Shown: one piece after another, positions 1,855-62,894 of the stretch
How the letters are laid out: every line of letters starts with the position of its first letter
Numbering within the stretch: position 1 is the first letter of the stretch
From: Rhodocytophaga aerolata
Lineage (GTDB): Bacteria > Bacteroidota > Bacteroidia > Cytophagales > 172606-1
Direction of reading: 5' to 3'
Assembly: GCF_030503435.1 (NCBI RefSeq)
Contig: NZ_JAUKPO010000034.1
Span: 1 to 64,000, forward strand
DNA length: 64,000 nucleotides
Notes under the pieces: generated by a model
The model's input: only the letters and a program-made list of their open reading frames with translations
Database searches by the model: none
Told to the model about the DNA's origin: nothing
Made by a program: the position numbers and the translations under genes

Positions 1855-2322
1855 CTAAATGGCTCCAAATTCCACATTTTTGTCCAGGTTTTCTATATAG
1901 GTATTCAAAGAATCTGCTGCCCCTTCTACATCCTTTTTTAATTCAGCCCAATTTTGTTCATTGGCCTGCTTAAGTTTCTGCAATTTATTTTCGAGCACTA
2001 CCTGCCGGGTCTCCAGGCGATTTATATCCTCCCTGGCTATTGCTTGTCTTTCTACGCTCATCGAATCCATTTGCTCTTTCAATAGATCAATTCTATCATC
2101 TGCTTTGGCTAGTAAATACTGATACATTTTTGTATGTTCTTCCTGCTCCTTAGTCCATGCTTTATATCCTTCCAGTTCATCACCAGTCAGGTAGGTATTG
2201 GCGTGTTCTTGCCTAAGATCATTGTCACGCCTGGAATTGCACGCTGGTAAGCTTACCGTCCCTAAACAAATGATCAAGATAAAAAAGCCTAGGGCTTTAC
2301 TTTTGTAGTTGTTTATGCTCAT
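1855..2322 (-). CDS. Coiled-coil lipoprotein, copy A
   Basis: A 155-residue protein of unknown function. The N-terminus is a lipoprotein signal peptide with a likely lipidated Cys near residue 28 (LPAC). Residues 55-150 are charged and helical with heptad-like spacing, so a coiled coil is likely. It is paralogous along its full length to the gene at 54948-55415: both contain QEHANTYLT, DELEGY and EQNWAE and end in a similar short tail. In both loci it is the promoter-distal gene of a leftward set, below a 91-residue lipoprotein gene and a 290-residue membrane coiled-coil gene. By inference it works with those in the periplasm or outer membrane. I do not recognise a named family. Confidence 0.8.
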   Translation of the reverse strand: MSINNYKSKALGFFILIICLGTVSLPACNSRRDNDLRQEHANTYLTGDELEGYKAWTKEQEEHTKMYQYLLAKADDRIDLLKEQMDSMSVERQAIAREDINRLETRQVVLENKLQKLKQANEQNWAELKKDVEGAADSLNTYIENLDKNVEFGAI

Positions 2323-2388: not shown

Positions 2389-2661
2389 CTATTTCTCTTT
2401 AAACGTATTTTCAGGTTTTTCGCCCCGGTTTATATATTTTAATGTATCCAGGTCTGGTGATCCTTTCTCAATAACCTCACCTGATATGTCATAACTGATG
2501 GAGGAGGTGGTATCAATGTAGAGTTCATCCTGACCTGCCGTAGTATCCATGGCTACTTCCCCTTCTTGCTGTTTAGGATGATCGCTGCAAGAGGATACGC
2601 TTATGGCTAATCCCAGAATAAGAATTGTTGTTTGTTAATATATATGTTTTGTACTATACAT
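2389..2661 (-). pseudogene. 91-aa lipoprotein, copy A, broken by an in-frame stop
   Basis: Reading leftward from the ATG at 2661 there are 91 codons including the final stop, one codon fewer than the intact paralog at 55470-55745. The frame is interrupted at codon 9 by TAA (2635-2637), where the paralog has an AAA lysine codon. After the stop the similarity is strong: a lipobox ending in SSC, DHPKQQEGEVAMDTTAG, YIDTT and SPDLDTLKYIN. The only later ATG lies beyond the lipidation Cys, so a restart would give a protein without an export signal. I therefore call it a recent nonsense pseudogene. A sequencing error at this base is the main alternative. Confidence 0.75.
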
Positions 2662-2716: not shown

Positions 2717-3586
2717 TCAAAAAAACCAGAAGCTATCGCGGAATTGTACTTCTACAGAACCCAGGTATTTGTCTTCGGTATAAATAGCCGCTTTATACAT
2801 ACCTGGTTTAATAGTATCTGTATCATACACAGTAAGGGTAACAGACTCCTTCTGCCCGTTAAAATCAATACTCTTTACTGCATGAACTGGTATTTCTTCT
2901 TCAGAACTTAACAGGGTTATGGTGCGCAGTGAAGGTTTTAGCGGACTGCCTTGTGCATCAGTTAAGCTCAGATATACTTCTTTTCGGCCACTTAACCCCA
3001 ACCCTGCCGGCACCTCAAATGAAACAGTCAGAACTGCTACTTTTTTTGCTTTTGCTGTTTCTTTATTATTGCTTTTAAGGGCTATCATGCGAAAGCCGTC
3101 AGCAGTTAACTCACTCGTAATTTGCTGCAAACTGTCACGTAATACATCTACATTCTGGTTTAGCTGTGTATTTTGCCTGGCTAATGAAGTATTTTTGTCT
3201 GTCAGCAAGTCTGCCCGGCTGTTTAGATCTGATAATCTAGATTCACTGCTGCTACGCATTAACTCCAGATTCTTAGCGTCAGTTGCTTTCCTGGTGCGTA
3301 ACTCCCATAAGTCGTTGTTTACCTGCGTGAGCAAACCGTTCAGTTCTTTTGCTTTCAAAGTCAAGGCATTTTTCTCTTCACTGGATTTCTCCACTTGCTT
3401 TCTAAGCTCATTCAAATCACGGCTCTGCCCCTGCAGTAGTGCATTTGCTTTTTGCTCTACCCTTTCTTTTTCGCTTGAAAGATCGCGGCTTTTATCCCAG
3501 TAGTAAATGTTTCCAGCTATGGAAACCAGAAGCAATGCGGCGATTACTCCCGTCAATATTTTTAACTTTGCTTTAGTTACTTCCAT
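2717..3586 (-). CDS. Membrane-anchored coiled-coil protein, copy A
   Basis: A 289-residue protein with one membrane helix at residues 10-30, a long heptad-rich coiled coil from about 31 to 155, and a C-terminal domain of about 130 residues that looks all-beta (alternating hydrophobic strands, ending in VQFRDSFWFF). The topology suggests an inner-membrane anchor with the rod and C-terminal domain in the periplasm. It closely resembles the protein at 55800-56672, and a piece of the same C-terminal domain is found at 33098-33277. It heads the leftward set with the two small lipoproteins. No recognised family or enzyme motif is present. By analogy with other coiled-coil envelope proteins it may be a scaffold, which is only inference. 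Confidence 0.8.
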   Translation of the reverse strand: MEVTKAKLKILTGVIAALLLVSIAGNIYYWDKSRDLSSEKERVEQKANALLQGQSRDLNELRKQVEKSSEEKNALTLKAKELNGLLTQVNNDLWELRTRKATDAKNLELMRSSSESRLSDLNSRADLLTDKNTSLARQNTQLNQNVDVLRDSLQQITSELTADGFRMIALKSNNKETAKAKKVAVLTVSFEVPAGLGLSGRKEVYLSLTDAQGSPLKPSLRTITLLSSEEEIPVHAVKSIDFNGQKESVTLTVYDTDTIKPGMYKAAIYTEDKYLGSVEVQFRDSFWFF

Positions 3587-3949
3587 AATGTTAGGTAGTT
3601 AAATAATGGCTCTGTTCTATTTTATCTGGTTACAATTGAATCAATCAAGGGATAAGAAAGGCTTGCCCTTTTATTGATTTACCCAAAAACCTGCTTTCGA
3701 CAGGTGAAAAATTATCATTACCCTGATGCTTGTCGGCTGCTTTTATAGCCGTGCTTTTTATTTATACGAAATAATTCTGTAGCAAATCTGTATTTGATTG
3801 AGCCCAAGACGGCATGTACAGGGGCTCTGTAGACAAATTTCTTAATAGGTAAGCAGAGGCGTAACTGGGTGTAATTTAGTAGGGGTATATTATGCACCTT
3901 TAGACAAATAAGAGAACAAAGTAGACTTTGCAAGTACAGTTACTTTATA

Positions 3950-5221
3950 CTACTGCCCGGGAAAATAAATACTAATCTGGTGATAATTATCCTGGTAATG
4001 ATACTCTACGCTAAGTTGATTGGTTTCACAGATGGCTTTGACAATTGATAAGCCTAAACCAAGTGATCTGGAATTTGAATCTGATTTAACAAAACGGTTA
4101 AAAAAGGTGGAAGTAGGTTTGGTGGGGGCCTTTCCGTTATTTCGGATACGCAGCATAGTATTTGTTAATTCCAGCGTTAATTCTCCGCCAGGGATATTAT
4201 ATTTAATGGCATTGCTTATCAGATTGTCTACAAGTATTTCAGCTACTGGCAGATTTATTAACAATTTAGCCTGCTCATCGAGTTGTTTGCTTAGCCTGAT
4301 CTGTTTCATTTCCATCAACTCTTCAAAATAGGCAAGCCGGGAAGCTATAAGTTTGGCTACTTCCACAGGTTGAGCATCTATATACTGATTATTTTTTATG
4401 CGGACTAGTAGCAAAAGGGTTTCCTTTAGCCTAGCCAGGCGGCTTACGGCCAGGTTAGCTGCGTTTACCAGTTGTAGCTGTTCTATGGAAAGATCATGTT
4501 CTTGTAGCAGTTCCAGTTTGCTCTGAATAATAGCCAGTGGGGTTTGAATCTCATGCGTGGTGTTCTCTGAATACTCTTTTAAATTGAGATAATCTCTGCG
4601 TGTCCGTTCGATCAGCCGGGTTACTGCTTCAATGAGTTCATTAAACTCCCGGACATTTGTTTTTGGAAACTGAGGCTCGATCCGTTCATCCAGCTGATAA
4701 TCTTTTAATGTTGAAAGGGTAATATAGAAAGGTTGCCAGAGTTTTTTTGAAACGATGCGGTTAGAAAAATACAGGGCTAAGCCCAGCACCATCGCCAGTA
4801 CCAATAAGGAGGCTACAATACCCCGCAGGATTTCAAAATCATCGATCAGCGGACGGCGGACAGTAATCTGGAAAGGTTGACCACGCAGGTTATCCGTAAA
4901 GGTAAGTTGCCGGTAGAGAGAGGCTTCCTTGCGCAGCGGATCGAAAATAGCTGTGTCTGAGATTTGCTCCGTTACGGTAAATGGATACTCTTTTGGAAGA
5001 CGTTTGATAGAAAAAATATGGTAGGAAAAGTTCTGGAAAACATATAAACTATCAGAAAAGGCTAGTTTTTCCCGGGCAAAGTCTCTGCGCTCATAAAGGG
5101 TTGAACGGATGTTTCTATCGATAATGTAGTTAAACAGGACATAGAACAAGATTCCGCCCAGCAAGAGTATAAGCAAGTTTGTTAGCAGTATATAGCGACT
5201 ATGTTTATAAAGCAGCCTCAC
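3950..5221 (-). CDS. Sensor histidine kinase (OmpR-type partner)
   Basis: A 423-residue membrane histidine kinase. Helix 1 is at residues 9-33, a periplasmic sensor loop of about 100 residues follows, and helix 2 is at about 135-155. Then comes a HisKA domain whose phospho-accepting His is in NTTHEIQTPLA (about His223), followed by a HATPase_c domain with an N box (DNLISNAIKYN) and a G2 box (SLGLGLSIVKAI). The first G box reads RNNGKAP and lacks the usual Asp, a variant I know from Bacteroidota kinases of this type. The start codon overlaps the stop region of the response-regulator gene by 4 nt (ATGA), so the two are translationally coupled. The stimulus is unknown. Its position between the coiled-coil gene and the DUF4136/MscS genes suggests it senses envelope or osmotic stress. 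Confidence 0.9.
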   Translation of the reverse strand: MRLLYKHSRYILLTNLLILLLGGILFYVLFNYIIDRNIRSTLYERRDFAREKLAFSDSLYVFQNFSYHIFSIKRLPKEYPFTVTEQISDTAIFDPLRKEASLYRQLTFTDNLRGQPFQITVRRPLIDDFEILRGIVASLLVLAMVLGLALYFSNRIVSKKLWQPFYITLSTLKDYQLDERIEPQFPKTNVREFNELIEAVTRLIERTRRDYLNLKEYSENTTHEIQTPLAIIQSKLELLQEHDLSIEQLQLVNAANLAVSRLARLKETLLLLVRIKNNQYIDAQPVEVAKLIASRLAYFEELMEMKQIRLSKQLDEQAKLLINLPVAEILVDNLISNAIKYNIPGGELTLELTNTMLRIRNNGKAPTKPTSTFFNRFVKSDSNSRSLGLGLSIVKAICETNQLSVEYHYQDNYHQISIYFPGQ

Positions 5222-5895
5222 GCATTTGTAAATTTATACCCTACTCCATATATCGTTTTCAGATAGTCTTTTCCTCCACTTTCAAGTATCTTTTTGCGAA
5301 GGTTCTTAATATGAGTGTACACAAAATCTAAAGAACCCACTTCATCTATATAATCTCCCCATAAATGTTCGGCTAAATTTTGTTTGGGAATAACCCGGTT
5401 CCGGTTGTTGATCAGATAAAGCAAGAGATCAAATTCCTTTTTAGTTAGTTGTAGCAGCTTTTCATGTACATAGGCCTCAAAGGTATCGGGAACAAGTTTT
5501 ATTTCCTCAAAGCAAATTACCGAATTGCCTTGCTGCATTCTGCGCCTGAAAACAGATTTCAGGCGGGCATTGAGTTCCTGCAAGTGAAAAGGTTTTGTCA
5601 GGTAGTCGTCGGCGCCAATATCGAGGCCCTGTACTTTATCATCCAGCGAATGCCGGGCAGAGATAATGATACTCCCGGTATTGGGTTGATACTGCTTTAA
5701 CTTCTTTATCAGTTTTAACCCATTGCCATCGGGCAGACCGATATCTATCAGGCAGCAATCATACGAGAACATAATGATTTTTTGATTGGCTGTGGTATAG
5801 GTAGAAGCCCGTTCACAAAGATACCCTTCTTTGGTAAGGTAGGTGCTGATGGAATCTAGCAGCTCTTCTTCGTCTTCTACAACCAGTATTTTCAT
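5218..5895 (-). CDS. OmpR/PhoB-family response regulator
   Basis: A 225-residue two-domain regulator. The receiver domain covers residues 1-115, with the acidic pair in VVEDEE, the phosphorylation site Asp51 (CLIDIGLPDG) and the conserved Lys101 (LTKPF). A winged-helix DNA-binding domain covers residues 125-223, ending in the typical YGVGYKF segment. It is the first gene of the pair with the kinase at 3950-5221. It is divergently arranged with the DUF4136 gene at 6357, sharing a 460-bp intergenic region, so that region is a natural target. Locus B, the second copy of this module, has no equivalent regulator. Confidence 0.92.
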   Translation of the reverse strand: MKILVVEDEEELLDSISTYLTKEGYLCERASTYTTANQKIIMFSYDCCLIDIGLPDGNGLKLIKKLKQYQPNTGSIIISARHSLDDKVQGLDIGADDYLTKPFHLQELNARLKSVFRRRMQQGNSVICFEEIKLVPDTFEAYVHEKLLQLTKKEFDLLLYLINNRNRVIPKQNLAEHLWGDYIDEVGSLDFVYTHIKNLRKKILESGGKDYLKTIYGVGYKFTNA

Positions 5896-6329
5896 AAGTT
5901 AGCTTGATAAAAGTAAGTCATACTTGCAGGCGTTGGTTTTTCCTATTTAATCCTTCTGTTTTCAAATTACCAGTCGCATATAAGAAAGATATCCTACCTC
6001 TGTTCTACGGCCTTTCTCCTAATAAGTTTATCCTCTTCCATCTGCCTTGGCAGCTTGTAAACGAACGATAATTAATTTTTTTATAAAGTCTGAATAAATG
6101 GGTTTAAACTTCAGATTTACTACAGAATCGCTACGTTAGGGCTGTTAACTGATGCTTATTTCGGAAAATACGAATTACACTATGGAAGTATATGAGCTAT
6201 CATCAGGTATCTGAAAGCAGGAAAAAATTAAAACAGACTAGTTGCTTACTAAACTATCAAGATTCATATCATTTTTTTCCATAGGTATTAGTGCTCGCCG
6301 GGCACAGTTTCAATAAGAACGTTTAAAAT
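5896..6329. other. Divergent intergenic region between regulator and DUF4136 gene
   Basis: No gene is visible. The stretch is A/T-rich and must hold the promoters for the leftward two-component pair and the rightward DUF4136 gene. I could not find a convincing Bacteroidota -33/-7 pair. An ACTACAGAAT stretch near 6119 recurs upstream of the locus-B copy (near 58395). Confidence 0.5.
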
Positions 6330-6351
6330 GTTGAATTAATTAAACAGGAGG
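6330..6351 (+). promoter_or_regulatory. Conserved quasi-palindromic leader and strong ribosome-binding site, copy A
   Basis: GTTGAATTAATTAAAC (6330-6345) is a quasi-palindrome with a single mismatched pair. It is followed at once by AGGAGG (6346-6351), 5 nt before the ATG. The same block is identical at 58531-58552, although the flanking sequence has diverged. A full AGGAGG is unusual in Bacteroidota, where most genes lack a clear Shine-Dalgarno. The palindrome could be an operator or an mRNA element. Confidence 0.5.
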
Positions 6352-6356
6352 AAATT

Positions 6357-6917
6357 ATGAAAAAAGTAAATTTTATAGGATTGATGATGTTATTATTCTT
6401 TACGGCTTGTTCAACCAAGTCTTACAAAGTAGATGGAGCAGGAAATGCAGATGCTAATATGGAAGAGTACAATACCTATGCATTTGCCTCCCAGGTGGAT
6501 AACAAGCTGGATGCAGGATTTTTCTTTCTAAATGACCTTGTTTTAAAAGCTGATATACGGGACGCTGTCAAACATGAGATGGATTCAAGGGGATACAAAC
6601 ATGACCCATCTTCCGCTGATCTGGTGGTAAATTTCAGGGTATTTGATAAAGCCACCACGGTACAAGGCTTACAAGGGCTGGGTGATGGTTACTGGAGTTC
6701 TGGGGAAGCCGATCGGTTTACTACCACAGAAACGGTAAACTTAAAAGAAGGCAGTGTAATGATTCATCTGGTAGACAGAAAAACCGGCGAATTGGTGTGG
6801 CAGGGATATGCTTCCGGGTTAATGGATGGAAATGCGTTTAACAAAGACAAAAATAAAATTGCCGAAGCAGTATCTATGATCTTTGATAGCTATACTCATC
6901 GGGCAGATAACTTATAA
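6357..6917 (+). CDS. DUF4136 domain lipoprotein, copy A
   Basis: A 186-residue lipoprotein. The signal peptide ends in a lipobox with Cys18 (FTAC). The rest fits the DUF4136 family of periplasmic or outer-membrane lipoproteins of unknown function, with the typical SADLVVNFRV strand, a GYWSSG loop, and a late DRKTGELVWQGYASG strand. It is about 91% identical to the protein at 58558-59118 (17 differences by my count), far closer than the other duplicated genes. The start is fixed by a strong AGGAGG 5 nt upstream. A terminator follows at 6961-6993, before the MscS gene. Confidence 0.85.
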   Translation: MKKVNFIGLMMLLFFTACSTKSYKVDGAGNADANMEEYNTYAFASQVDNKLDAGFFFLNDLVLKADIRDAVKHEMDSRGYKHDPSSADLVVNFRVFDKATTVQGLQGLGDGYWSSGEADRFTTTETVNLKEGSVMIHLVDRKTGELVWQGYASGLMDGNAFNKDKNKIAEAVSMIFDSYTHRADNL

Positions 6918-6960
6918 GAGAACATGTAATTTATAACAATTGGTGTACTATTCTTTACTC

Positions 6961-6993
6961 AAAAAGGTTTAGGCAGTAGCTTAAACCTTTTTT
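6961..6993 (+). terminator. Terminator after DUF4136 gene, copy A
   Basis: AAAAAGGTTTA pairs with TAAACCTTTTT around a 10-nt loop and ends in a T run. The same structure follows the paralog at 59157-59189. A short 3' sequence (AACAATTGGTGTAC) before it is also shared by both copies. Confidence 0.75.
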
Positions 6994-7146
6994 AAAGCTA
7001 CAAAGCAAAAAAAATGCTTAAAGAGCCTCTCCTAAAAGTAAAAATCAGTGCTACCTCCTTGCCGGAACCAAGTTTATAGTTTATACACCTATGCTTCAGC
7101 CAACCTTATCGTAGAGCAACAAACCAGTTGTTGGCAACACATTCTT

Positions 7147-8070
7147 ATGCAAGAGCAAACAAATTTTCATCCTGGTGATTTTATAACAGACTTTACCAAA
7201 GTATTAACCGACTATTGGGAGCGCTTCCTGTTTCTATTGCCTAACCTGTTCTTTGCACTCATTATTTTAGTGGTCGCCTTTCTTCTATCCACTAAAATCA
7301 GGAGACTATTGAGTAGCAAATTTTCTGGAAAAGCTCATGACCAGATAACGGCTGAATACATTGCCATTGTGGCTAAATGGGCCATCGTTATTGTAGGTAT
7401 TTTACTGGCTTGCCAGGCTTTAGGATTAAGTGGAATAGCCGGTGGCTTACTGGCAGGTGCGGGTGTTTCTGCTGTCGTTGTGGGCTTTGCATTTAAGGAT
7501 ATTGCCCAGAATTTTCTGGCAGGCTTGATCCTGGCTTTCAATCGTCCGTTTAATGTACATGATACCGTACAAATTAATGATGTCATTGGTAAGGTGGCGG
7601 GTTTAGATCTACGGACCACGCATATCCGCACTTTTGACAGCAAAGATGTGTACATTCCCAATGGCATTATTATTACTACCCCCATTACTAATTATACCCG
7701 CAATGGCCTTATCCGCATAGATTTTATCGTTGGTATAGATTACAATGATGATATAGCAGAAGCCAGCCGGTTGATAGAAGACACCGCCATTCAGGTAGAG
7801 GGTGTGTTACAAAAAGATCCGCCGTATGTAGTGGTAGATGAACTGGCTACCAATACAGTAAACCTGAAAGTTTTCTTCTGGACAGAAACAGACGATTATA
7901 AAAAAGGGATTCTGCAGCTGAAAGGAAACATCATGATGCAAGTAAAGAAAGTACTGCTGGCAAACGGATATGGCTTACCGGCCAATATACAGGAGTTGAA
8001 GCTCTATGACCACGAGAAACACTTATCGGTTGAAGTGATTAATCAGTCGGTTAACAGCAGTGCGGGTTGA
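7147..8070 (+). CDS. MscS family mechanosensitive channel
   Basis: I choose the ATG at 7147 (307 residues). The same frame is open upstream from a GTG at 7048, but those residues look non-coding. The protein has three membrane helices (about 26-48, 71-90 and 100-131). The third is Gly/Ala-rich (GAGVSAVVVGFAFKDIAQNF) and matches the pore helix of small-conductance mechanosensitive channels. A beta domain (PFNVHDTVQI, DSKDVYIPNG) and an alpha/beta C-terminal domain follow. Such channels open when membrane tension rises on osmotic downshift. The C-terminal half has a broken copy at 59253-59611, which makes this the only intact MscS of the two duplicated loci. A DUF421 gene follows after 22 nt. 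Confidence 0.9.
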   Translation: MQEQTNFHPGDFITDFTKVLTDYWERFLFLLPNLFFALIILVVAFLLSTKIRRLLSSKFSGKAHDQITAEYIAIVAKWAIVIVGILLACQALGLSGIAGGLLAGAGVSAVVVGFAFKDIAQNFLAGLILAFNRPFNVHDTVQINDVIGKVAGLDLRTTHIRTFDSKDVYIPNGIIITTPITNYTRNGLIRIDFIVGIDYNDDIAEASRLIEDTAIQVEGVLQKDPPYVVVDELATNTVNLKVFFWTETDDYKKGILQLKGNIMMQVKKVLLANGYGLPANIQELKLYDHEKHLSVEVINQSVNSSAG

Positions 8071-8092: not shown

Positions 8093-8620
8093 ATGGAAAG
8101 TATTTTTTATAATAACTGGCAAAGTTTAGTTCGCATCTTAATCATTGGTGTGTTAGCGTATGCCTCATTAGTTATTTTATTAAGGGTTTCAGGGAAACGC
8201 ACCCTTACCAAAATGAATGCATTCGATTTTGTGGTAACTGTTGCCCTAGGCTCTACCCTGGCTAGTGTGCTATTAAGCAAAGACGTTACACTTAGCGACG
8301 GCATTCTGGCTTTCAGTGTGCTTATATTTTTGCAATATATTGTTACCTGGCTATCTGTACGCTCTAAATCATTCAGTAATTTTATTAAGTCTGAGCCTAG
8401 GCTGCTATTTTTCCAGGGACAGTTCTTGCAGAAAGCCATGCGGAGTGAACGAATTACAGAAAATGAGTTAATAGCTGTTGCCCGTAAAAACGGAATAAGC
8501 AGCCTTGAAGAGGTGGATGCCATGATACTGGAAACGAATGGAAAAGTAAATGTAATCGAGAAATTAAAACCCTCTACCCCCTCTCTGCTTTCAAACGTAA
8601 ACAGCGATGGTAAGCTGTAA
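8093..8620 (+). CDS. DUF421 family membrane protein
   Basis: A 175-residue protein of the DUF421 (YetF/YcaP-like) family. Three N-terminal helices precede a cytoplasmic alpha/beta domain. The family signature is clear: LLRVSGKRTLTKMNAFDFVV after the first helix, ALGSTLAS in the second, then the RLLFFQGQFLQKAM strand and an EELDAxxxE-type end (SSLEEVDAMILETNG). The function of the family is not established. It starts 22 nt after the MscS stop and is probably co-transcribed with it. Confidence 0.88.
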   Translation: MESIFYNNWQSLVRILIIGVLAYASLVILLRVSGKRTLTKMNAFDFVVTVALGSTLASVLLSKDVTLSDGILAFSVLIFLQYIVTWLSVRSKSFSNFIKSEPRLLFFQGQFLQKAMRSERITENELIAVARKNGISSLEEVDAMILETNGKVNVIEKLKPSTPSLLSNVNSDGKL

Positions 8621-30338: not shown

Positions 30339-32954
30339 TCATTCAAGTTGAACAGGCACCATAATACGAACCAACGTACCTATTCCAGTTGAAGGCCGGG
30401 TAATAAAAAAACTACCGTTTAAAAGTTCAACCCGGTCTTTAATAACGGCAAGTCCCATCCCATCTTTTTTCTCCCCGGTATTGGTAATACCTTTGCCATT
30501 ATCTTCAACCTCCAATAAGAGTTGATTGTCTTTTTTTTGGAGCAGTATCCTAGCCTGGGTAGCTTGCGAATGTTTTACCAAATTATTAATCAGTTCTTGA
30601 CATATGCGGTAAAAGCCTAATTCCAAGTAAGGAACCAGCCTCCCAAACAATCCCTCTACCTGACAGTGGATATGTAGAGAAACCCCTTCATATTTCCGGC
30701 ACAAATCATCAAGAGCTGCCACTAGGCCAAAGTCCTTGAGTAAAACCGGAACCAGTTCATGAGATACCTTGCGGGTCTGCTCGATTGCTTCGATGAGCAG
30801 TTTTTCAGTGGTTTGAAGCGCTTGTTGCGCTGCTTCATTTTGCTGGGGCACTAACTGGGCTACCCGCTCCAGATTCAGCTTTGTGGCATAGAGAATTTGC
30901 CCTACTCCGTTGTGCAACGATTCTGAAATTCGTCTGCGTTCTTCTTCCTGGGCAACCAGAATGGCGTGTAAGAGTTGCTGCTGGCCTTTGAGCCGAAATT
31001 GGATGTATTCTTCTTCCAGGTGTTTACGCCTGGTAATATCCTGGCTGGTGATAATCAGCCCGTCATAGAGTTTAACAGCCGACACGGAAAACCACTTATC
31101 CTGCCCGGCAAAGAAATAGCGAATTTCCCTGTTAAGGGGTTTTCCGATTTCCACCACATTAATGTAGTCATCAAATAATCCATCCGTTTTCAGGTTGGGA
31201 TACTGCTGCAAAAACTGTTTTTCCACAATATTCTCTTGATTTCCCTGGTGGTGAGCCTGTTGGTTTACCAATAAGAACTCAAAATCTACGATCTGCTGGT
31301 TTTGGTTGCGTACCGCCCTACCTACAAGAATACCTATTGGAGAGACATCAAAGACTGCCTGCAACAATTCCTGGCTTTCCCGGACTTGCACTTCCGCTTC
31401 TCTAATAGCAGTAATATCCAAGTCCACCCCCAGCATCGTATTTGATTTGCCCGGTCCGTTTTTAACCGGGCCTGCCTTGATCTTGAGGGCAAGTATTTTA
31501 TCTTTCACTTTGATTCGCAGGTATTCCTCAAAGGGCTTGGGCTTTCCCCGTAAGATTTTAACCAGTTTTTCGGCAATAGGCAAGTCGTCCTCAACAACAT
31601 AATCCAGATAGGTTTCAGGGCTTACCTCAAGGCCGGATTGCATTCCAAACAGGCGGTACATCCCTTCTGACCAGCGTAACTGGCCAGTGGTACTGTCAGA
31701 TTCCCAACTGCCCATTCGGGCGACTTCTTCCGCCTGGCGGAGAATCTGATAATTGATTATTTTTTCTTCCTCTGCTTTTTTTCGTCTAGTAATATCTTCC
31801 ATACTTACCACGAGTCCATCACCTAGTTTAACAGCCTGTATGCAGAACCATCCTCGTATACCTTCCCCTTCATAAAATTGCTCAAAGTCCACAGAGTGGC
31901 CAGTTTCAACCACTTTCTTCAATTTATCCAGTATACCCGAAGTTCTTGCTCCAGGGTAAAGTTCACCATAGCGTGAGCCTACCAAGTTTCTTGCGGCAAA
32001 CTTTTCCAAACCCGGATTGGCCAGCCGGTAAGTAAAATCAATAATTTCTCCTGTCTCATTGCGAACGCTGCTAAAAACTGCAATATGGGTGATCAACGCA
32101 TCAAAAACAGCTTGCAGCAAATCTCTACTTTCTTTGAGGGCTTGCTCGGCTTGCCTCAAATGGGTAATGTCCTGCACCATTCCGTTGCTGATGGAAGGAT
32201 GCCCTTTAAGATCTTTTTGAAAGTAACCGGTATTTAATATATGGTGAACTTCACCACTATCGTGCACCACCCGGTATTCCATTCGGAAGTCTTTTGCTTC
32301 CGTTATACAGTGCTGTGCGTGGGCAATTACCTTCTCCCGGTCCGCTGGGTGGATCCTCTCTAGCCATCCTTGAGCAGTCCGGGCCTCTGCTTCTCTGGCA
32401 AAACCGATAATGGCTTTGCCTTTTTCATCCCAATGAGCAGTACCCGTTTGCAGATTCCAACGTCCCATCCCGGCATTGGAACTTTCCAGGATCAGCTGTA
32501 TGGTTTGATGGGATCGTATAATTTCCTCTATACCCTTTTGTTGATCAATAGAATCTTCTACTTTATGAATAATATAAAGGATTTCGCTCTGCTCATCTAA
32601 TACAGGCGTGTTGATCAATTGCCAGTATTTATCTTCCTTATCACTATCAGCCTGTTGCACCATGGATAGTTGGTAGTGCTGCTGAACCATCCTATGTGGC
32701 TTTTTGGTAGAAAGCACCTGCTGGAAGGAAGCTTTCAAATAAAGAAAGGCTTTAGTTTTGCTTTGGGTAAAATTATCAGCAATAAGCTCCAGGAAGTTGC
32801 GGCCCACAATCTTTTCCCTGTCAGTGGAGATAGCGGCCAGATACAGATCTGAGGCAGTGAGGATAATAAGATCCGGGGAAAGAATGAGGTACAAATCGGG
32901 CACTTTTTCAAAGATTTTCCTTATTTCCCCCGGCAGACTGGTAGGTCTCTTCAT
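30339..32954 (-). CDS. Multi-PAS sensor histidine kinase (HisKA_3 type)
   Basis: An 871-residue cytoplasmic kinase without membrane helices. Five PAS/PAC-like units can be followed (starting near residues 15, 145, 275, 400 and 525), each joined by short coiled linkers such as ITHLRQAEQALKESRDLLQ and DITRRKKAEEEK. The kinase part begins near residue 655: a HisKA_3 dimerisation domain with EEERRRISESLHNGVGQ (phospho-accepting His), then HATPase_c with NNLVKHS, DNGKGI and KDGMGLAVIKDRV. It should sense small molecules, redox state or light through PAS ligands and phosphorylate the NarL-type regulator at 29107-29796. No cofactor-binding Cys or His motif is obvious. Confidence 0.9.
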   Translation of the reverse strand: MKRPTSLPGEIRKIFEKVPDLYLILSPDLIILTASDLYLAAISTDREKIVGRNFLELIADNFTQSKTKAFLYLKASFQQVLSTKKPHRMVQQHYQLSMVQQADSDKEDKYWQLINTPVLDEQSEILYIIHKVEDSIDQQKGIEEIIRSHQTIQLILESSNAGMGRWNLQTGTAHWDEKGKAIIGFAREAEARTAQGWLERIHPADREKVIAHAQHCITEAKDFRMEYRVVHDSGEVHHILNTGYFQKDLKGHPSISNGMVQDITHLRQAEQALKESRDLLQAVFDALITHIAVFSSVRNETGEIIDFTYRLANPGLEKFAARNLVGSRYGELYPGARTSGILDKLKKVVETGHSVDFEQFYEGEGIRGWFCIQAVKLGDGLVVSMEDITRRKKAEEEKIINYQILRQAEEVARMGSWESDSTTGQLRWSEGMYRLFGMQSGLEVSPETYLDYVVEDDLPIAEKLVKILRGKPKPFEEYLRIKVKDKILALKIKAGPVKNGPGKSNTMLGVDLDITAIREAEVQVRESQELLQAVFDVSPIGILVGRAVRNQNQQIVDFEFLLVNQQAHHQGNQENIVEKQFLQQYPNLKTDGLFDDYINVVEIGKPLNREIRYFFAGQDKWFSVSAVKLYDGLIITSQDITRRKHLEEEYIQFRLKGQQQLLHAILVAQEEERRRISESLHNGVGQILYATKLNLERVAQLVPQQNEAAQQALQTTEKLLIEAIEQTRKVSHELVPVLLKDFGLVAALDDLCRKYEGVSLHIHCQVEGLFGRLVPYLELGFYRICQELINNLVKHSQATQARILLQKKDNQLLLEVEDNGKGITNTGEKKDGMGLAVIKDRVELLNGSFFITRPSTGIGTLVRIMVPVQLE

Positions 32955-33040
32955 AGGCTGAAAATAGGTTTTACCGTGGAACGTGTCTTTTTGTATACGA
33001 ATAGAAAGCGTTATAAGACGAAAAATAGCCTGCTAAATAT

Positions 33041-33487
33041 TTAAAAATTAGTGGATATTAAATATTTATAATTCTCCACCTGAAAGGCTATCACGGCATC
33101 TACAGTAGTCAAGGCGTTGCCTTGCAGATCTGTCAGGCTCAGATACACTTCTTGTGTACCACTTATGCCTATCTCTGATGGAATAGTAAGAGAAACAATC
33201 AGCATATGTAGCTTCTTAGCTATGGCTGTTTCCTTATCATTTCCTTTGATTGCTACTACCTGAAAACTGTCCCCTGTCAACCTGTTTCTGGGAACCATTG
33301 TCTGCAAATGCTCATATTTAGCATCCCATAACCATGGCAAGAGTGCCTCCGTAGGATGAAAAGAGCAAATAATTTGCAAGTTAGTTATATGTTTCAAAGA
33401 TTCTTTAGTAGTTAGCCGGCTCATGACACCGGGAGAATAAATCCATACAAATTTTTTAAACCTGCCTACTCCTTTTGAGAAAATCAA
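33041..33487 (-). pseudogene. Fragment of the membrane coiled-coil family (third copy)
   Basis: A 148-codon frame. Its middle (33098-33277) matches the start of the C-terminal domain of the proteins at 2717-3586 and 55800-56672: a TGDSFQVVAIKGNDKETAIAKK segment (given here in part), VSLTIPSEIGISG and EVYLSLTDLQGNA. The N-terminal 65 residues do not resemble the membrane helix or coiled coil, and the end of the domain (the RDSFWFF tail) is missing. I interpret it as a decayed third paralog, with its coiled coil scrambled by frameshifts. It is not part of either module. Confidence 0.65.
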
Positions 33488-33682
33488 TTTTCACCGATCC
33501 ATGGGGTTACATCTTCATCTTTAAAACTGTTTCAAAAACTGGGAGACTTACAGGTTAGTTTACAATCAGATACTTTTCCAAATACATGAGGTATCTGCAT
33601 ATTGACTAGGGCCACTGAAAATGATGGTATTGTGAAAAGAGAAAAATACAGCTAAAGCCTGCATTAAAGGCAGTGGTGAACA

Positions 33683-34642
33683 CTAACGACTTTGGGCTTG
33701 GTCACCTGCTTTAGCAAAATCCCTTTTTCCTTTATCTACCTGTACGGCAAATTCTTTCGGCCTAATCTGCTTTCCCAACTTACGGGCATACACTTGGGTG
33801 AATTCTGCACCCAAGAAAAAAATCAGGCTGCTATAGGTAAACCAGATGAGAATAAGAATAATGCTGCCTGCCGCTCCGTAGGTAGCACCAGGGTTGCTTT
33901 GCCCCAACAACAAACCGATAAAGAACTTACCCAATCCAAACAGCAAAGCACTTATAAAAGAACCCACCAGCACATCTTTCCAGCGGATAATAATGTCTGG
34001 CAGGAATTTAAAAATAGCGGCAAACAATGCCGTGGTAATACATAAGCTGATGAGTTCATTTGTTAGTTGAAAAACATACACACTGCTTACACCAAATAAG
34101 TTACTGATGGTACCGCTAAATGCAGCAATCAATGAGGTAAGCACTAGAGAAAGCAGCAATAAAAAGCTGATGGCCAGCATCAGTCCATAAGAAAAGGCAC
34201 GGTCTTTAATTAGTTTCAGCCAGGCTCTTTGTGGCTGGGCTTCTACACCCCAGATGCTATTCAAACTAATTTTGAGATGAAAGAAAAGATTGCTGGCAGA
34301 AAAGAGAATGATCGCAAGGCCAGCTATGGTAGCTATGGTAGATGATTTGCTTTCGTAAGCATTTTGTATCATGGTTTGTAATTGATTTGCCCCTTGTTCG
34401 CCTATCAACTCATTGGCTTGCTTATAGATTTCTCCTTTTACCAGCTCTTCTCCGACCAGATATCCTGTGACTGTAACCACAATTAGCAATAATCCTGGTA
34501 GAGAAAAAACAGCATAGTAAGCTACTACTGCACTCAGGCGGAAAGGGTCAGACTTATTCCAGTTAACAAACGTTTCTTTGATGATTGCCCAAATCAGCTT
34601 TATCTTCTGGAAAACTTTCATACTATCCCTTACGGGAGGCAT
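33683..34642 (-). CDS. YihY/BrkB family membrane protein
   Basis: A 319-residue integral membrane protein of the YihY (BrkB, 'virulence factor') family. The signature appears in order: DPFRLSAVVAYYAVFSLPGL after the first amphipathic helix, the LFSASNLFFHLKISLNSIWG segment, then four more helices with KFLPDIIIRWKDVLVG, FSALLFGLGKF-type helix and GAAGSIILILIWFTYSSLIF. The C-terminal 35 residues are charged and cytoplasmic. The family was once called ribonuclease BN by mistake; its real function is not settled. No neighbour gives a clue beyond the general envelope theme. Confidence 0.9.
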   Translation of the reverse strand: MPPVRDSMKVFQKIKLIWAIIKETFVNWNKSDPFRLSAVVAYYAVFSLPGLLLIVVTVTGYLVGEELVKGEIYKQANELIGEQGANQLQTMIQNAYESKSSTIATIAGLAIILFSASNLFFHLKISLNSIWGVEAQPQRAWLKLIKDRAFSYGLMLAISFLLLLSLVLTSLIAAFSGTISNLFGVSSVYVFQLTNELISLCITTALFAAIFKFLPDIIIRWKDVLVGSFISALLFGLGKFFIGLLLGQSNPGATYGAAGSIILILIWFTYSSLIFFLGAEFTQVYARKLGKQIRPKEFAVQVDKGKRDFAKAGDQAQSR

Positions 34643-54947: not shown

Positions 54948-55415
54948 TTATATGCCACCCCATTCTATATTCTTATCCAGCTCTTCCATACTAAACTTCA
55001 GCGAATCAGCCGCCTGGTCTACTTCTTGTTTTGCCTCTGCCCAGTTTTGCTCATCAGCTAAGCTAAGTTCATTTAACTCACTTTGTAATGCAACTTTTTG
55101 CAGCTCTAAATGCTTGATATCTTCTCTGGCTTTGGCTTGGTTTACAGGACTTAGATTACTCATCTTCTCTTCTAACCGCTCCATTCTATTTTCAACTTGA
55201 TGAATCAACTCTTGATGGCTTTGTGTATAGCTTTCCTGCTCTTTTGCCCACTGTTCATACCCTTCTAGTTCGTCCTCGGTTAAATAGGTATTGGCATGTT
55301 CTTGTTGTAACTCACTTTCACCACGGGGATTACAGGAAGAAAAGCTTAATATACATATAGCCAATATCACAGGAAAAAGATATAGCAATTTAATTGTTGT
55401 TCTACGTATTGTCAT
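54948..55415 (-). CDS. Coiled-coil lipoprotein, copy B
   Basis: A 155-residue lipoprotein with Cys near residue 28 (SFSSC), paralogous to the gene at 1855-2322 and of the same length. Shared motifs include QEHANTYLT, DELEGY, AREDI and EQNWAE. The helical part (60-150) is heptad-rich. Identity is visibly lower than for the DUF4136 pair, so the duplication is old or the gene evolves fast. It follows the intact 91-aa lipoprotein and 290-aa coiled-coil genes, so here the three-gene set is complete. Function is unknown. Confidence 0.8.
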   Translation of the reverse strand: MTIRRTTIKLLYLFPVILAICILSFSSCNPRGESELQQEHANTYLTEDELEGYEQWAKEQESYTQSHQELIHQVENRMERLEEKMSNLSPVNQAKAREDIKHLELQKVALQSELNELSLADEQNWAEAKQEVDQAADSLKFSMEELDKNIEWGGI

Positions 55416-55469: not shown

Positions 55470-55745
55470 CTATTTCTCCTCAAAGGCGTCTTCTGGCTTT
55501 ACCCCTTTATTAATGTATTTCAATGTATCCAGGTCGGGAGATCCTGTGGTATCTACTTCGCCAGCAATACCATAGCTTATATCAGATGTCGTGTCTATAT
55601 ATAAATTATCTTGTCCAGCAGTAGTATCCATCGCTACTTCACCCTCTTGCTGTTTAGGATGGTCAGTACAGGCTGATAGACTTATGATGATTACCCAAAA
55701 CAGGATGTTTATTACTTGTTTAGAATTATGTATTGCCATTTTCAT
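55470..55745 (-). CDS. 91-aa lipoprotein, copy B (intact)
   Basis: A 91-residue lipoprotein. The signal ends in LSAC (Cys26), and the mature part is short and acidic (QQEGEVAMDTTAG, YIDTT, SPDLDTLKYIN, EDAFEEK), probably unstructured or a single strand pair. It is the intact counterpart of the nonsense pseudogene at 2389-2661. It lies 54 bp before the 155-aa gene and 54 bp after the coiled-coil gene, so the three form an operon. No family is recognised. Confidence 0.78.
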   Translation of the reverse strand: MKMAIHNSKQVINILFWVIIISLSACTDHPKQQEGEVAMDTTAGQDNLYIDTTSDISYGIAGEVDTTGSPDLDTLKYINKGVKPEDAFEEK

Positions 55746-55799: not shown

Positions 55800-56672
55800 T
55801 CAAAAAAACCAGAAGCTATCGCGGAATTGTACTTCAACTGAGCCAAGATATTTGTCTTTTGTATAAGCAGAGGCTATATACATTCCTGGTCTAATTGCCT
55901 TTGTATCATCAAATGTGAATTCGACGGACTCTTTACGCTCGTAAAAATTCACACTTTTTACAGCATGTACCGGGATTACCCTTTTGTCTTCAGCGTTTGA
56001 TAGGGTAAATGTGCGTAGCACCGGGTTCACGGCAGTGCCTTGTGAATTAGTCAAGCTCAGATATACTTCTTTTCTACCTCTTAAACCAAATTCTGCAGGC
56101 ACAGTAAAAGATACAGTAAGCACCGCTACTTTTTTCGCTTTTGCGGTTTCCTTATAATTACTTTTAAGGGCTACTATGCGAAAACCGTCTGCTGTAAGGG
56201 CGTTTGCTACCCTCTGCAAACTGTCATTTAATACATCTGCCTGCTGGTTCAATTGATTATTTTTTCTCGTTAAGGTGCTGTTATTCTCCATCAGTTGATC
56301 AGCCTTATTGTTTAGATCTGATAATTTTGCTTGGCCTTCATTACGGAGTGAATCCAGGCTACCTCTGTTATTTGCTCCTTTTGTACGCAATTCCCAAATA
56401 TCTGTATTTACCGCACTGATTGAATTAGTCAGCTCATTTACTTGATTAGTATATGATCTATTCTCTCGTTGGGTGTTGTTGAGTTGTTTCTTTAGTTGCT
56501 TAATATCCCTACTCTGACCAAGTAACAAGACATCCGATTTTTGCGCTATACGATCTTTTTCTGAGGCCAGATCCTGGCTTTTGGTCCAATAATATATATT
56601 CCCTGCTATTGAAAATAGAAGCAAAGCACCCATGGCTCCAGATAGTATTTTAATTTTCTTTCCCCTTTCCAT
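55800..56672 (-). CDS. Membrane-anchored coiled-coil protein, copy B
   Basis: A 290-residue protein with a membrane helix at 10-30, a coiled coil from about 31 to 155 (long runs of heptads with Asn/Gln at the core) and a C-terminal beta domain that is the most conserved part: ADGFRxxALKSN, KETAKAKKVAVLTVSF, GRKEVYLSLT, IPVHAVKS and the tail VQFRDSFWFF, all shared with copy A at 2717-3586. The coiled coil itself has diverged more. It is the first gene of the locus-B operon. Its partner kinase and regulator in locus A have no counterpart here. Confidence 0.82.
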   Translation of the reverse strand: MERGKKIKILSGAMGALLLFSIAGNIYYWTKSQDLASEKDRIAQKSDVLLLGQSRDIKQLKKQLNNTQRENRSYTNQVNELTNSISAVNTDIWELRTKGANNRGSLDSLRNEGQAKLSDLNNKADQLMENNSTLTRKNNQLNQQADVLNDSLQRVANALTADGFRIVALKSNYKETAKAKKVAVLTVSFTVPAEFGLRGRKEVYLSLTNSQGTAVNPVLRTFTLSNAEDKRVIPVHAVKSVNFYERKESVEFTFDDTKAIRPGMYIASAYTKDKYLGSVEVQFRDSFWFF

Positions 56673-57383
56673 ACTTACTATTGTTTAGGTAGCTGCCTGA
56701 TGTGTAATTTTTATTGCTTTCACTACAGATAAGCGTTGTTCCAGGTCTACTTTGATAAATTTTACAACTCTGATTTTAAACTAGTGAAAGAGAGTTCTTA
56801 ATTTCTGCTTTTAGAAGTAACCCGTATAAAGCCTCATTTTTACTACTAAAGCCTCATTTTTACTACTATTTGCTACTACGAATCAATTCTGAAGAAAATC
56901 TGTATTTCTAAACCTAACTAAAGGAACAGACTTAAGAATTGTTTTTAATATTGAAATAAAGGAATGGCACCTTCATTTGATTCTACTCTTAGAATATGAG
57001 CTGTTAGGTTGGTAAAACTTTCCTGGATGGAAGAGATTATTCATTTTGTATTTTACAGGGATAGAATACTACAATTTTTTGTTTTTTATCTACTCATTTA
57101 ACCTCTTATCCCCTGATTGCTCCTTTTATTAAATAAATAAAATTTTCAAGCCTTTCGTCTAATTATTGATTGGAATACATACTATGAATGGGTTTGGTAC
57201 TCGGATAAAAAGAGCTGATACTTACTTTTTATACTTGCCAAACCTAACCTAGTAGGTAGAATAAATTTTTAATCATATAAGAATATAGCCCTCTACCTTA
57301 CTAAAGTATACTTACTTGAGCATCTGATAGAGTGACTCAGTTAAAGTATTAGTTGTTTTTAACCCTTTTAACATGATAAAGCT
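56673..57383. repeat. Intergenic region with a 20-bp tandem duplication
   Basis: No gene is seen in about 710 bp, where locus A has its two-component pair. AAAGCCTCATTTTTACTACT occurs twice in tandem at 56828-56867. The region must contain the promoter for the leftward coiled-coil operon. Confidence 0.6.
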
Positions 57384-57653: not shown

Positions 57654-58530
57654 TCTGATGCTAATCCTAGTACCTTGTCTCATTATCCGATAGTTGGAGC
57701 AATGATTGATTTACTTCACTGCTGCTATACTACATAGCCATTGAGGAAACTACTATTTTTCCATCTACTGCTATCTTGAAAGTAGTGGCGTTTATTTTTA
57801 AAGGATGCGTTTTCTATGAACTCTTTAGCAGTAAGAGCCGTGTTTGTGGGAATTTACTCCATAGGTATGTGTCCAGCATTTGGAAACATAATGAGATGAG
57901 TGTGCTGTTAGGGAAATCTTTATCAAAACAATGCGCATATTTCACAGGTGGTGGTCTTGCTTACCTCACAAAATTAAAGTGGATGTATGAATAGCAGGCA
58001 GCCGCTTCCATGGGCTTGGCTGAGCAATACTTTCCATTCGTTCAGATAAAGCTTGCCTGTTACCCTCCCAGCAAGGCATATGTGAATATAATTCTACCAG
58101 CTTGTTGTCAACCTTTTGTGGATGAGCATACTAATTTTCCAGGCATTGACTGAATACGCCATCCGGGGTCTCACTTACAATCAAATTGCTACTACGGCAA
58201 ACGCAATAAAATATAAGGCAAAGGAATCTAATCAGCCCCTGTGGGATATCCTGCCGCTTCAATAAGGATTAATTTCTTCACCTTTAGGATAGTTTAAAGT
58301 ATACCGCCATACTATTTCACCCGGGTAAGGTATTAACTATGGGATAAAGATTAATACCAAAGAATTATGTTAAAAACTCAGAATCTGCTACTTAACTACA
58401 GAATATCTACAGAATCAGTACGTAAGAGCTAGCATTCGAAGTTTGGTAAAAAAATATTGACAGCATATATAAGTTTCAAGCAAGAGTGCTTACCCTTTAC
58501 CAAACTCAGTGTAACAATATTAGTTAGTAT
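57654..58530. other. Gene-poor region with possible small frame
   Basis: About 880 bp upstream of the locus-B DUF4136 gene. One 47-codon frame (58122-58265, starting MSILIFQALTEYAIRG) has a coding look but no ribosome-binding site or known relatives. Near 58385-58430 the sequence TACAGAATC-AGTACG resembles the upstream region of the locus-A copy (6119-6140), suggesting a shared control region. Confidence 0.35.
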
Positions 58531-58552
58531 GTTGAATTAATTAAACAGGAGG
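58531..58552 (+). promoter_or_regulatory. Conserved quasi-palindromic leader and ribosome-binding site, copy B
   Basis: Identical to 6330-6351: GTTGAATTAATTAAAC followed directly by AGGAGG, with the ATG 5 nt later. Identity of a non-coding block in otherwise diverged flanks points to selection or to gene conversion that included the leader. Confidence 0.5.
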
Positions 58553-58557
58553 AAATT

Positions 58558-59118
58558 ATGAAAAAAATAAATTTTATAGGATTGATGATGTTATTAGTGT
58601 TTTCGGCTTGCTCAACCAAATCTTACAAAGTAGATGGAGCAGGCAATACAGATGCTAATATGGAAGAGTACAACACCTATGCCTTTGCCTCGCAAGTGGA
58701 CAGTAAAATCGATGAAGGATTTTTCTTTTTGAATGATCTTATTTTAAAGGCAAACATAAGAGAGGCAGTGAAACATGAAATGGACTCACGAGGCTACAGA
58801 CATGACCCAAACTCAGCTGATTTAGTGGTGAATTTCAGGGTTTTTGATAAAGCCACCACGGTACAAGGCTTACAAGGCTTGGGAGATGGCTATTGGAGTT
58901 CAGGGGAAGCGGACAGGTTCAATACTAGAGAAACAGTAAACTTGAAAGAAGGGAGTGTGATGATTCACCTGGTAGATAGAAAGACCGGAGAACTGGTATG
59001 GCAAGGATATGCTTCGGGTTTGATGGATGGCAATGTATTCAATAAAGATAAAAACAAAATAACTGAAGCAGTTTCCATGATCTTTGATAGCTATACGCAT
59101 CGGGCTGATAAATTATAA
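58558..59118 (+). CDS. DUF4136 domain lipoprotein, copy B
   Basis: A 186-residue lipoprotein (lipobox FSAC, Cys18) with the same DUF4136 domain as the gene at 6357-6917. The 17 differences are mostly conservative and fall in the N-terminal third and at 117-119, while the GYWSSGEADRF and DRKTGELVWQGYASG blocks are identical. It is far more conserved than the rest of the duplicated module, so it is under strong constraint or was homogenised by gene conversion. A terminator follows at 59157-59189. Confidence 0.85.
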   Translation: MKKINFIGLMMLLVFSACSTKSYKVDGAGNTDANMEEYNTYAFASQVDSKIDEGFFFLNDLILKANIREAVKHEMDSRGYRHDPNSADLVVNFRVFDKATTVQGLQGLGDGYWSSGEADRFNTRETVNLKEGSVMIHLVDRKTGELVWQGYASGLMDGNVFNKDKNKITEAVSMIFDSYTHRADKL

Positions 59119-59156
59119 GTAATATGTTTCATAACAATTGGTGTACTTTCTCTACC

Positions 59157-59189
59157 AAAAAGGTTTAAGCCATGGCTTAAACCTTTTTT
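59157..59189 (+). terminator. Terminator after DUF4136 gene, copy B
   Basis: AAAAAGGTTTAAGCC and GGCTTAAACCTTTTT form a longer stem than in copy A, followed by a T. It keeps the same core and position. Confidence 0.78.
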
Positions 59190-59252
59190 AAACTCATCCT
59201 CATGAAAAACTCTACCTCTTCAAGTTTTTTGGCTGTTCTTCTTTTGGTAGGT

Positions 59253-60096: not shown

Positions 60097-60323
60097 TCTA
60101 ATTTTATTTCTCTTTACTGTTTCTACCCCACTAAGCGATCTTTTAGGAGATTAACTCAAGTCCTGCCTCAAAGTACATATGCTATTTCCATACAACATTC
60201 CCATAAGCCAAGGAGCCTAACTTCAGAAAAAACACAGAATTACTTCGTTCAATAATTTATAGCCTCTACTAATGCAGTAGTCAATAATTAAAATTTTATT
60301 CTATAATTCTTAACACAACCAAT

Positions 60324-62159: not shown

Positions 62160-62522
62160 TTAGTATGATGATAAATTTAACTTATGACAAAATAAATGAG
62201 CTTCCTCTTCAGAGGCTACAATGGTAACATAATTATCAAGGCCTAACAATAAAAAAATATCTCTTACCGGAAGTTGCATTTCATAAAAGACAAATGCAAT
62301 ATGAAATGCTTTGATTTGGGAATGATGATCTATAATTACGCCTAATCCTGCTGAAGAAATATAGTTTAGGTCTTTACAATTTATATACAACTTCCTTAAG
62401 TAAAGGCCTTCTTGTAAGGTTTTTTTAATCGCCTCATCTAGTAGAGGTGCTGAGTTGCAATCCAATTCTCCCTTGAGCTGGAGAATACACAAATCATGTT
62501 CTGTACGAGAAGTTAAAACCAT
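62160..62522 (-). CDS. STAS-domain anti-sigma factor antagonist-like protein
   Basis: A 120-residue single STAS domain, as in SpoIIAA/RsbV anti-anti-sigma factors: the first strands (CILQLKGELDCNSAPLLDE), the KLYINCKDLNYISSAGLGVI core with the phosphorylatable Ser (probably Ser57) and a final helix (SEEEAHLFCHKL). No anti-sigma kinase (RsbW/SpoIIAB type) or phosphatase gene is near, so its partner is unknown. Stress-response or polysaccharide-control circuits are the usual context. Confidence 0.9.
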   Translation of the reverse strand: MVLTSRTEHDLCILQLKGELDCNSAPLLDEAIKKTLQEGLYLRKLYINCKDLNYISSAGLGVIIDHHSQIKAFHIAFVFYEMQLPVRDIFLLLGLDNYVTIVASEEEAHLFCHKLNLSSY

Positions 62523-62894
62523 AGTTTGTCATTTGAAATAGTGTAAGAAAAGCTTTTCAAAACCATATGCTATTTCACCCATCAAGCAACTACATTTTCA
62601 CTCTTCTGCATTAATACGGACACATTCTGAGGAAAATCTGTAGTTAAAAGTGTTAATTACTTGTTGAAAACAGTAACTATAAAAGACCTAGCAGACAGTT
62701 TGCGTATAGCAATCCAATAAAAAAAAGCAATGTTTGTAAAAATGATGTCAGCACAGAAAAGGGGAAAATAACGGTAATGCCTATGAAAAGTACAGAGCGT
62801 TCATATAGAGGTTATAGCCGGCCGGTGAGTATGGATCATAGACATTAGCCATTTATCTAGACTTCAAATTTTTCCTGTAGAAACTCAAAAATTT
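62523..62894. other. Intergenic stretch with no visible gene
   Basis: About 370 bp between two leftward genes. No coding frame or strong hairpin is seen. Confidence 0.45.

Follow-up and report, generated by a model that had tools for sequence, protein, structure and literature searches.

The window, by which we mean the whole 64,000-nucleotide stretch of Rhodocytophaga aerolata DNA analysed here, carries two paralogous genes, X1 and X2, and the remains of another copy. It belongs to a 70.9-kb contig of a 9.07-Mb genome assembled in 202 contigs. The X features are as follows.

2717..3586, minus strand: X1, 289 aa, with membrane helix, helical stalk, Ig-like domain and RDSFWFF tail
3497..3565, minus strand: X1 transmembrane segment, about residues 8-30 (hydropathy maximum at residues 8-24)
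3107..3496, minus strand: X1 stalk, residues 31-160, a single unbroken helix in the model
2720..3118, minus strand: X1 C-terminal Ig/FnIII-like beta-sandwich domain plus tail, from the domain-alone model
2720..2740, minus strand: X1 tail RDSFWFF, from the sequence
55800..56672, minus strand: X2, 290 aa, paralogue of X1
55803..55823, minus strand: X2 tail RDSFWFF, from the sequence
33098..33304, minus strand: tail-less X remnant, about residues 158-217, from a profile match

The preliminary description of this DNA had proposed that X1, X2 and the 33-kb fragment share a C-terminal domain ending in RDSFWFF, and that the coiled coil varies while this domain is kept. Both full genes are present, and their products align over 285 columns with 60% identity (E 9e-127). 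The shared domain is indeed the better conserved part, with 71% identity against 49% in the stalk; variation of the coil therefore holds for its sequence but not for its length, as the stalk comprises 140 residues in both proteins under our own partition. As applied to the fragment, the claim of a domain ending in RDSFWFF is wrong. The fragment's match to X1 (33107-33286, E 5e-14, 53% identity) covers X1 residues 158-217, about 60 residues of the domain, and lies within a 148-aa open reading frame (33041-33487), but the second half of the domain is absent, a recognisable coil is absent as well, and RDSFWFF was not found in the three minus frames of 32901-34000. Judged by its sequence, the piece is a truncated X remnant. 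The rest of the genome holds a third full paralogue on contig C99 (44% identity) and distant paralogues on C111 (24%) and C125.

X1 lies downstream of a two-component gene pair, and both X genes are accompanied by small lipoprotein genes; DUF4136, MscS, YetF and STAS-domain genes are found on the same contig.

3950..5221, minus strand: histidine kinase (HisKA, HATPase_c; Pfam, above cut-off), co-directional with and upstream of X1
5218..5895, minus strand: OmpR-type response regulator (Response_reg, Trans_reg_C; Pfam, above cut-off)
6357..6917, plus strand: DUF4136a, opening a same-strand gene run that includes MscS, YetF and ZIP-like genes
7048..8070, plus strand: MscS-type channel (Pfam)
8093..8620, plus strand: YetF (DUF421; Pfam)
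58558..59118, plus strand: DUF4136b, paralogue of DUF4136a by sequence
62160..62522, minus strand: STAS-domain protein, from a domain search
1855..2322, minus strand: 155-aa lipoprotein a, downstream of X1
2389..2634, minus strand: remnant of a 91-aa lipoprotein gene beside X1, with its frame kept and no ATG, GTG or TTG start left
55470..55745, minus strand: intact 91-aa lipoprotein, downstream of X2
54948..55415, minus strand: 155-aa lipoprotein b, downstream of X2

The pair has the domains of an OmpR/PhoB-type system, namely a receiver and winged-helix regulator and a HisKA plus HATPase_c kinase, all four above the Pfam cut-offs; the ZIP match in the DUF4136a run falls below its cut-off. The two DUF4136 genes lie in a duplicated block (6328-6996 and 58529-59192, 85% identical), and a third copy is found at C130:67765-68328, each of the three with a regulatory site of the kind described below. 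A 144-aa protein at 51874-52308 (minus strand) is presumably, from its appearance, an IS200/IS605-type transposase, and because of this resemblance the island possibly has mobile parts.

The shared domain was also described as not assignable to a known family, and profile searches of Pfam and NCBIfam with 21 members bear this out, as they returned no convincing match. With the domain alone, Pfam reached at best E 1.5e-4, for two members, and NCBIfam E 2.4e-4, for one, and any single family in either collection matched at most 3 of the 21; for X1, the one member with printed cut-offs, all domain matches fell under them. Whole-protein matches in the two collections were to coiled-coil models, and those with a printed cut-off were below it. 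Sequence searches of the PDB gave coiled coils or weak single matches, such as a biofilm-associated protein at E 0.008, and were set aside. Searched against 395 genomes of the phylum, a 21-row profile of the domain matched in 86, all within the class: the genome itself, 14 others of its order and 71 others of the class. Among the genomes listed as lacking a match, 12 were from the class and none from the order, from which we take rates of 14/14 for the order, 71/83 for the rest of the class and 0/297 beyond, on the assumption that the list is sorted by kinship, so that the 289 further misses, which come after same-phylum rows, lie outside the class.

A tree of 87 domain sequences, computed by a quick method from few columns and rooted at the midpoint, separates a core group of 43 rows from an accessory group of 44 (support 98). 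Family matches of up to 200 aa (the 33-kb fragment), domain scores of up to 20 and ten likely duplicate loci were excluded from these counts. All 35 rows scored as tail-bearing fall in the accessory group, where the tail positions read R in 34, D in 31, S in 34, F in 34, W in 24 or L in 10, F in 35 and F in 33; the count takes locus L130, which ends in RDSFL, out of register. Among named organisms, the tail clade is represented by Spirosoma, Fibrisoma, Runella, uncultured Cytophagales and one record labelled Flavobacterium. Scanning named genomes with an alignment as query yielded 16 loci, one of them tail-less; the same scan with a single protein as query gave no match. A plasmid search returned a single distant match, on an Emticicia plasmid. 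A description of the X family or of its regulon was not found among the listed results of a literature search.

Structure prediction supports the beta character attributed to the domain. With the 21-row alignment, AlphaFold2 modelled X1 as a helix over residues 5-160 followed by nine strands (pLDDT 85, pTM 0.46), and the domain alone as a beta sandwich (pLDDT 90, pTM 0.81) with low confidence for the last residues. The models thus predict an Ig/FnIII-like sandwich without a specific solved relative: in a comparison with solved structures, the best match (Z 9.7, rmsd 2.6, 103 aligned residues) was tied with many unrelated rows, and the best 50 matches of Foldseek and VIA-align were generic sandwich folds, none standing out. 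As a straight helix, X1 residues 31-160 would measure about 19 nm, and across the family the stalk comprises approximately 130-150 helical residues, or some 19-22 nm if straight. The distance from the end of the transmembrane segment to a fixed domain residue is 171 +/- 8 residues (CV 4.5%, n=87), and the stalk diverges faster than the domain in 200/200 sampled pairs of the tail clade. These distances cluster near 156, 167 and 178, in steps of about 11 residues, as if insertions and deletions preserved the coiled-coil register.

Cysteine content was used to assign the cellular side. Among the 87 members, cysteine accounts for 12 of 10,888 domain residues and 1 of 13,298 stalk residues, compared with 0.66% for 48 regulators and 0.64% for 52 kinase cores, both taken from these loci, and 0.81% for 199 open reading frames of random stretches; six exported proteins of the window have zero cysteine beyond residue 30. 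Coiled coils are low in cysteine anyway. Because cysteine is depleted in both parts, the sequences suggest that stalk and domain are periplasmic. Lysine plus arginine counts flanking the transmembrane segment (1.8 before, 2.0 after) do not discriminate between topologies; we infer an N-in orientation and dimerisation. X1 and X2 are members of an unnamed, class-wide family of predicted membrane-anchored periplasmic rods with an Ig-like tip. A protein common in the sampled class (71/83 genomes outside the order) and so far without a name thereby gains an architecture and a likely cellular side.

The strongest linkage of X is to two-component systems. A kinase lies within 5 kb of 22 of 30 tail-bearing members, 14 of which have both kinase and regulator, while 8 have no kinase; the corresponding figures are 6 and 5 for the eight members ending in FRLMK, FRLR or FRVI, and 6 and 1 for the 23 core-type members, 17 of which have no kinase. 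As a control, 116 random genes were taken from twenty 20-kb stretches of genomes in which tail-bearing members are likewise present; a kinase was within 5 kb of 6 of them, and both genes within 5 kb of 0. In 17 such genomes, 20 further, non-tail paralogues were found: eight follow a kinase of the same orientation at a distance of 35-157 bp and have a regulator no more than 1.6 kb away; of the other 12, eleven lack a kinase in their stretch, and the last has its kinase at 4.1 kb. These counts are not independent, as many loci are orthologous, and the kinases were called with a home-made profile of five X-neighbour kinases, a possible bias towards X loci. On the 87-row tree there are 14 changes of the two-component label, which indicate that the linkage was gained or lost repeatedly. 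Kinases neighbouring X carry several kinds of N-terminal sensor sequence; those at L128-L131 and L133 look, to our eye, CHASE3-like at the N-terminus and differ from the sensor of the window kinase. X2 has no adjacent two-component pair. A regulator-kinase-X order is seen in a tail-less subclade of the core group (L041, L147, L151, L153, L157, L159, L160, L163 and L166), which forms one clade with support 100.

The regions upstream of X1, X2 and several neighbouring genes share a tandem 11-bp repeat with the layout TACAGATTTNC TACAGAATNNN TNCGTA. An initial comparison of upstream regions had counted 12 pentamer pairs, spread over four of the seven regions compared, which is weaker than it appears since two of the seven overlap at the same divergent site. 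An apparent second element, AAAGCAG, was dropped because it is common across the window. Allowing up to three mismatches, TACAGATTTNCTACAGAATNNNTNCGTA has 5 matches in the window against 0.00 expected, with repeat units 11 bp apart and 93-220 bp 5' of called start codons.

3765..3792, minus strand: predicted response-regulator site, 179 bp before X1
6110..6137, plus strand: predicted site where the regulator/kinase operon and DUF4136a diverge
56877..56904, minus strand: predicted site, 205 bp before X2
58397..58424, plus strand: predicted site, 134 bp before DUF4136b
62615..62642, minus strand: predicted site, 93 bp before the STAS gene

The whole 9.07-Mb genome has 7 strict matches, all on this contig, and the reversed pattern has 0; the pattern was derived from this genome, so these own-genome counts are not independent. 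The two strict matches beyond the window precede the third DUF4136 gene and an EF-hand-like lipoprotein gene, whose EF-hand matches are weak and below cut-off. No site was found upstream of the C99 paralogue. A weaker site at 60222-60249 (plus strand, score 19.2) precedes the DUF4142 gene at 60324 by about 75 bp.

Further evidence comes from related genomes. A weight matrix of the seven own sites, for which 0 of 798,920 random-stretch positions reach 14, gives 34.9 for the site preceding X in G006 and 38.0 for the one at MscS there, which overlaps the called MscS start; in G004, the score is 24.2 ahead of X and reaches up to 30.7 on the remainder of that contig. Scores of 16.7 and 14.0 were also reached by unrelated stretches within loci L122 and L132. 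Among the 87 family members, only X1, X2 and the X genes of G006 and G004 have an upstream score above 14 (the next is 13.2), and in sequence terms the site is restricted to this bacterial family. A relaxed pattern was run over 59 genomes; it had been drawn up with the G006 and G004 sites already known, so that only G002 is a wholly independent case. It gave 8 matches in the own genome G000 (the eighth off the contig, on C66), 7 in G002, 14 in G004 and 8 in G006, against 0-6 in the other 55 (6 in G055 and 5 in G017, both without a close kinase); reversed, it gave at most 1 per genome across the 59.

The kinase follows the same distribution. A profile of its sensor matched in 15/59 genomes, reaching E<1e-70 only in G000, G002, G004 and G006, and the next-best match was a partial second copy in G002 (E 1.6e-35); close orthologues of the window kinase are thus present in 3 relatives. 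At least 7 sites were found in 4/4 genomes with the close kinase and in 0/55 without it (Fisher p 2e-6, relatedness ignored). Sites in the relatives precede DUF4136 genes (G002, and G004 twice), YetF (G002), and, in G002 and G004 each, an outer-membrane barrel like that at 46791-47516 and EF-hand-like lipoproteins; in G004, they also precede a DUF326-type four-helix protein and a protein weakly like the 155-aa lipoprotein. Of the 29 sites in relatives, 26 were examined, and 7 of these, including all four on G006:C503, have no same-strand called open reading frame within 450 bp; a few precede genes without a counterpart in the window. Targets that recur as homologues are X, DUF4136, the EF-hand-like lipoprotein, the outer-membrane barrel, and MscS or YetF. 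G002, at 98% completeness, retains the close kinase orthologue, the regulator and the sites, and a tail-bearing X was not detected there beyond a single weak match (E 2.7e-4).

Given the family, architecture, site, genomic restriction of the site and its co-occurrence with the kinase, all obtained by computation, we consider it probable, though well short of certain, that X1 and X2 are output genes of the OmpR-type system at 3950-5895 and that X is a rod anchored in the inner membrane. The site of the TACAGATTTNCTACAGAATNNNTNCGTA type is likely the binding site of the regulator at 5218-5895, because it is a tandem 11-bp repeat, occupies an autoregulatory position and co-occurs with the kinase; tandem direct repeats spaced by about 11 bp are typical of OmpR/PhoB-type regulons. 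X1 and X2 are predicted members of the regulon since sites lie upstream of them and co-occur with the kinase. The regulator would bind the tandem repeat and, once bound, switch on X1, X2, its own operon, the DUF4136 genes, the STAS gene and the EF-hand-like lipoprotein gene. The content of this set (lipoproteins, MscS, YetF, DUF4136) points to a role in envelope stress. The X rod, held in the inner membrane, would span much of the periplasm, and its Ig domain and aromatic tail would hold, or report on, a partner on the outer membrane or cell wall. For one clade of X, the analysis thus adds a candidate regulator and a binding-site prediction, and the regulon offers a direct route to function, with one kinase, one site and a short target list recurring in four genomes.

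The linkage data could also mean that X is a direct third component of histidine kinases, its periplasmic domain binding the sensor and setting kinase activity in the manner of QseG or YycH/YycI. The excess of kinases beside tail-bearing members (22/30, and 14/30 with a regulator, against 6/116 and 0/116 for random genes), the 8/20 non-tail paralogues placed 35-157 bp behind a co-directional kinase with a regulator nearby, and the repeated appearance or disappearance of the linkage (14 label changes) would all fit. However, X2 lacks an adjacent two-component pair, 17/23 core-type members have no kinase within 5 kb, the neighbouring kinases carry several sensor kinds, and the linkage counts may be biased towards X loci by a profile built from five X neighbours. 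Moreover, the kinase and the sites persist in G002, where a tail-bearing X was not detected, and the kinase therefore probably does not need X as an obligate subunit. We therefore regard a direct third component as rather unlikely; a modulating effect of X on the kinase, like that of QseG on QseE, may still exist, and the regulator-kinase-X operons of Spirosomataceae are compatible with it.

The preliminary description had suggested instead that the domain binds a partner, perhaps one of the small lipoproteins, which would make X an inner-membrane rod holding an outer-membrane lipoprotein. The cassette of X, 91-aa and 155-aa lipoprotein genes does occur twice in the window, with the 155-aa gene 3' of both X genes on the same strand, and in G004 a site of its own accompanies a 180-aa protein that resembles the 155-aa lipoprotein weakly (25%, E 6e-6), on a contig other than that of X. 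Yet the 91-aa gene beside X1 is broken, with its start lost, and the X family is class-wide, whereas these lipoproteins have no known class-wide spread. In a comparison pool of the window and 115 stretches, 20 of them random controls and some loci duplicated, the only 155-aa-like X neighbour elsewhere was a 159-aa lipoprotein at L122, whose similarity (E 0.003 to 0.0004) is of the coiled-coil kind. When the two 155-aa proteins were combined into a profile, it matched in 15/59 genomes, weakly outside the own genome (best E 3.8e-11), and none of the matches listed adjoins an X. Lipoprotein binding thus seems very unlikely to be the role of the domain. Even less credence is due to the idea that X is a passenger of the stress island with an unrelated housekeeping role common to the core clade: core members are class-wide and mostly without a nearby kinase, as this would predict, but sites lie directly 5' of X in three genomes, including before the kinase-unlinked X2.

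Beyond the role as an output of the two-component system, the family could serve as a periplasmic gauge, in which a rod of near-fixed length has its Ig-like tip touching the outer membrane or wall, and the copies wired to two-component systems couple envelope spacing or integrity to expression. We think this quite unlikely to hold as stated; if rod length matters, X would offer a handle on membrane spacing or envelope-damage sensing in these bacteria.

A membrane-anchored periplasmic protein within a two-component regulon is an already known kind of arrangement. MreC and GldM/PorM resemble X in having an inner-membrane helix followed by periplasmic helical and beta domains; they were not among the listed sequence or structure matches of X, with which a shared fold remains compatible. 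YycH and YycI have one transmembrane segment and an outside domain, and are not known to have a coiled-coil rod or aromatic tail. Neither name appears among the Pfam and NCBIfam matches of X1 at E up to 1, or among those of X2 (best 25 of 40 and of 33). As far as the source describes them, YycH and YycI (WalH/WalI) of WalRK are membrane proteins that control a kinase (PMC8534201). QseG is presented as an outer-membrane accessory lipoprotein of QseE/QseF that acts in the periplasm (PMC12691602, PMC6075780). Like X, it is an envelope protein encoded with a kinase and a regulator; X differs in its N-terminal membrane helix, long stalk and Ig-like domain, and in the G002 kinase occurring without a detected X. 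Unlike QseG, X1 and X2 have no lipobox cysteine, as they contain zero cysteine. The BiofilmReg operon of Burkholderia, described in the order regulator, LysM/FecR protein, kinase and DUF4136 (PMC5192318), likewise combines a two-component operon with a DUF4136 protein. It is a four-gene operon, in contrast to the arrangement here, and an X-like protein is not seen in the operon as outlined in that source.

At twelve loci (L031, L107-L109, L116-L119, L121, L123, L125 and L127), a 563-582 aa protein with a signal-peptide-like start is encoded 3' of X in the same orientation, either adjacent or with a small open reading frame between them. From the sequences of some of these loci we take it to be TPR-like, and it could be a partner of X.
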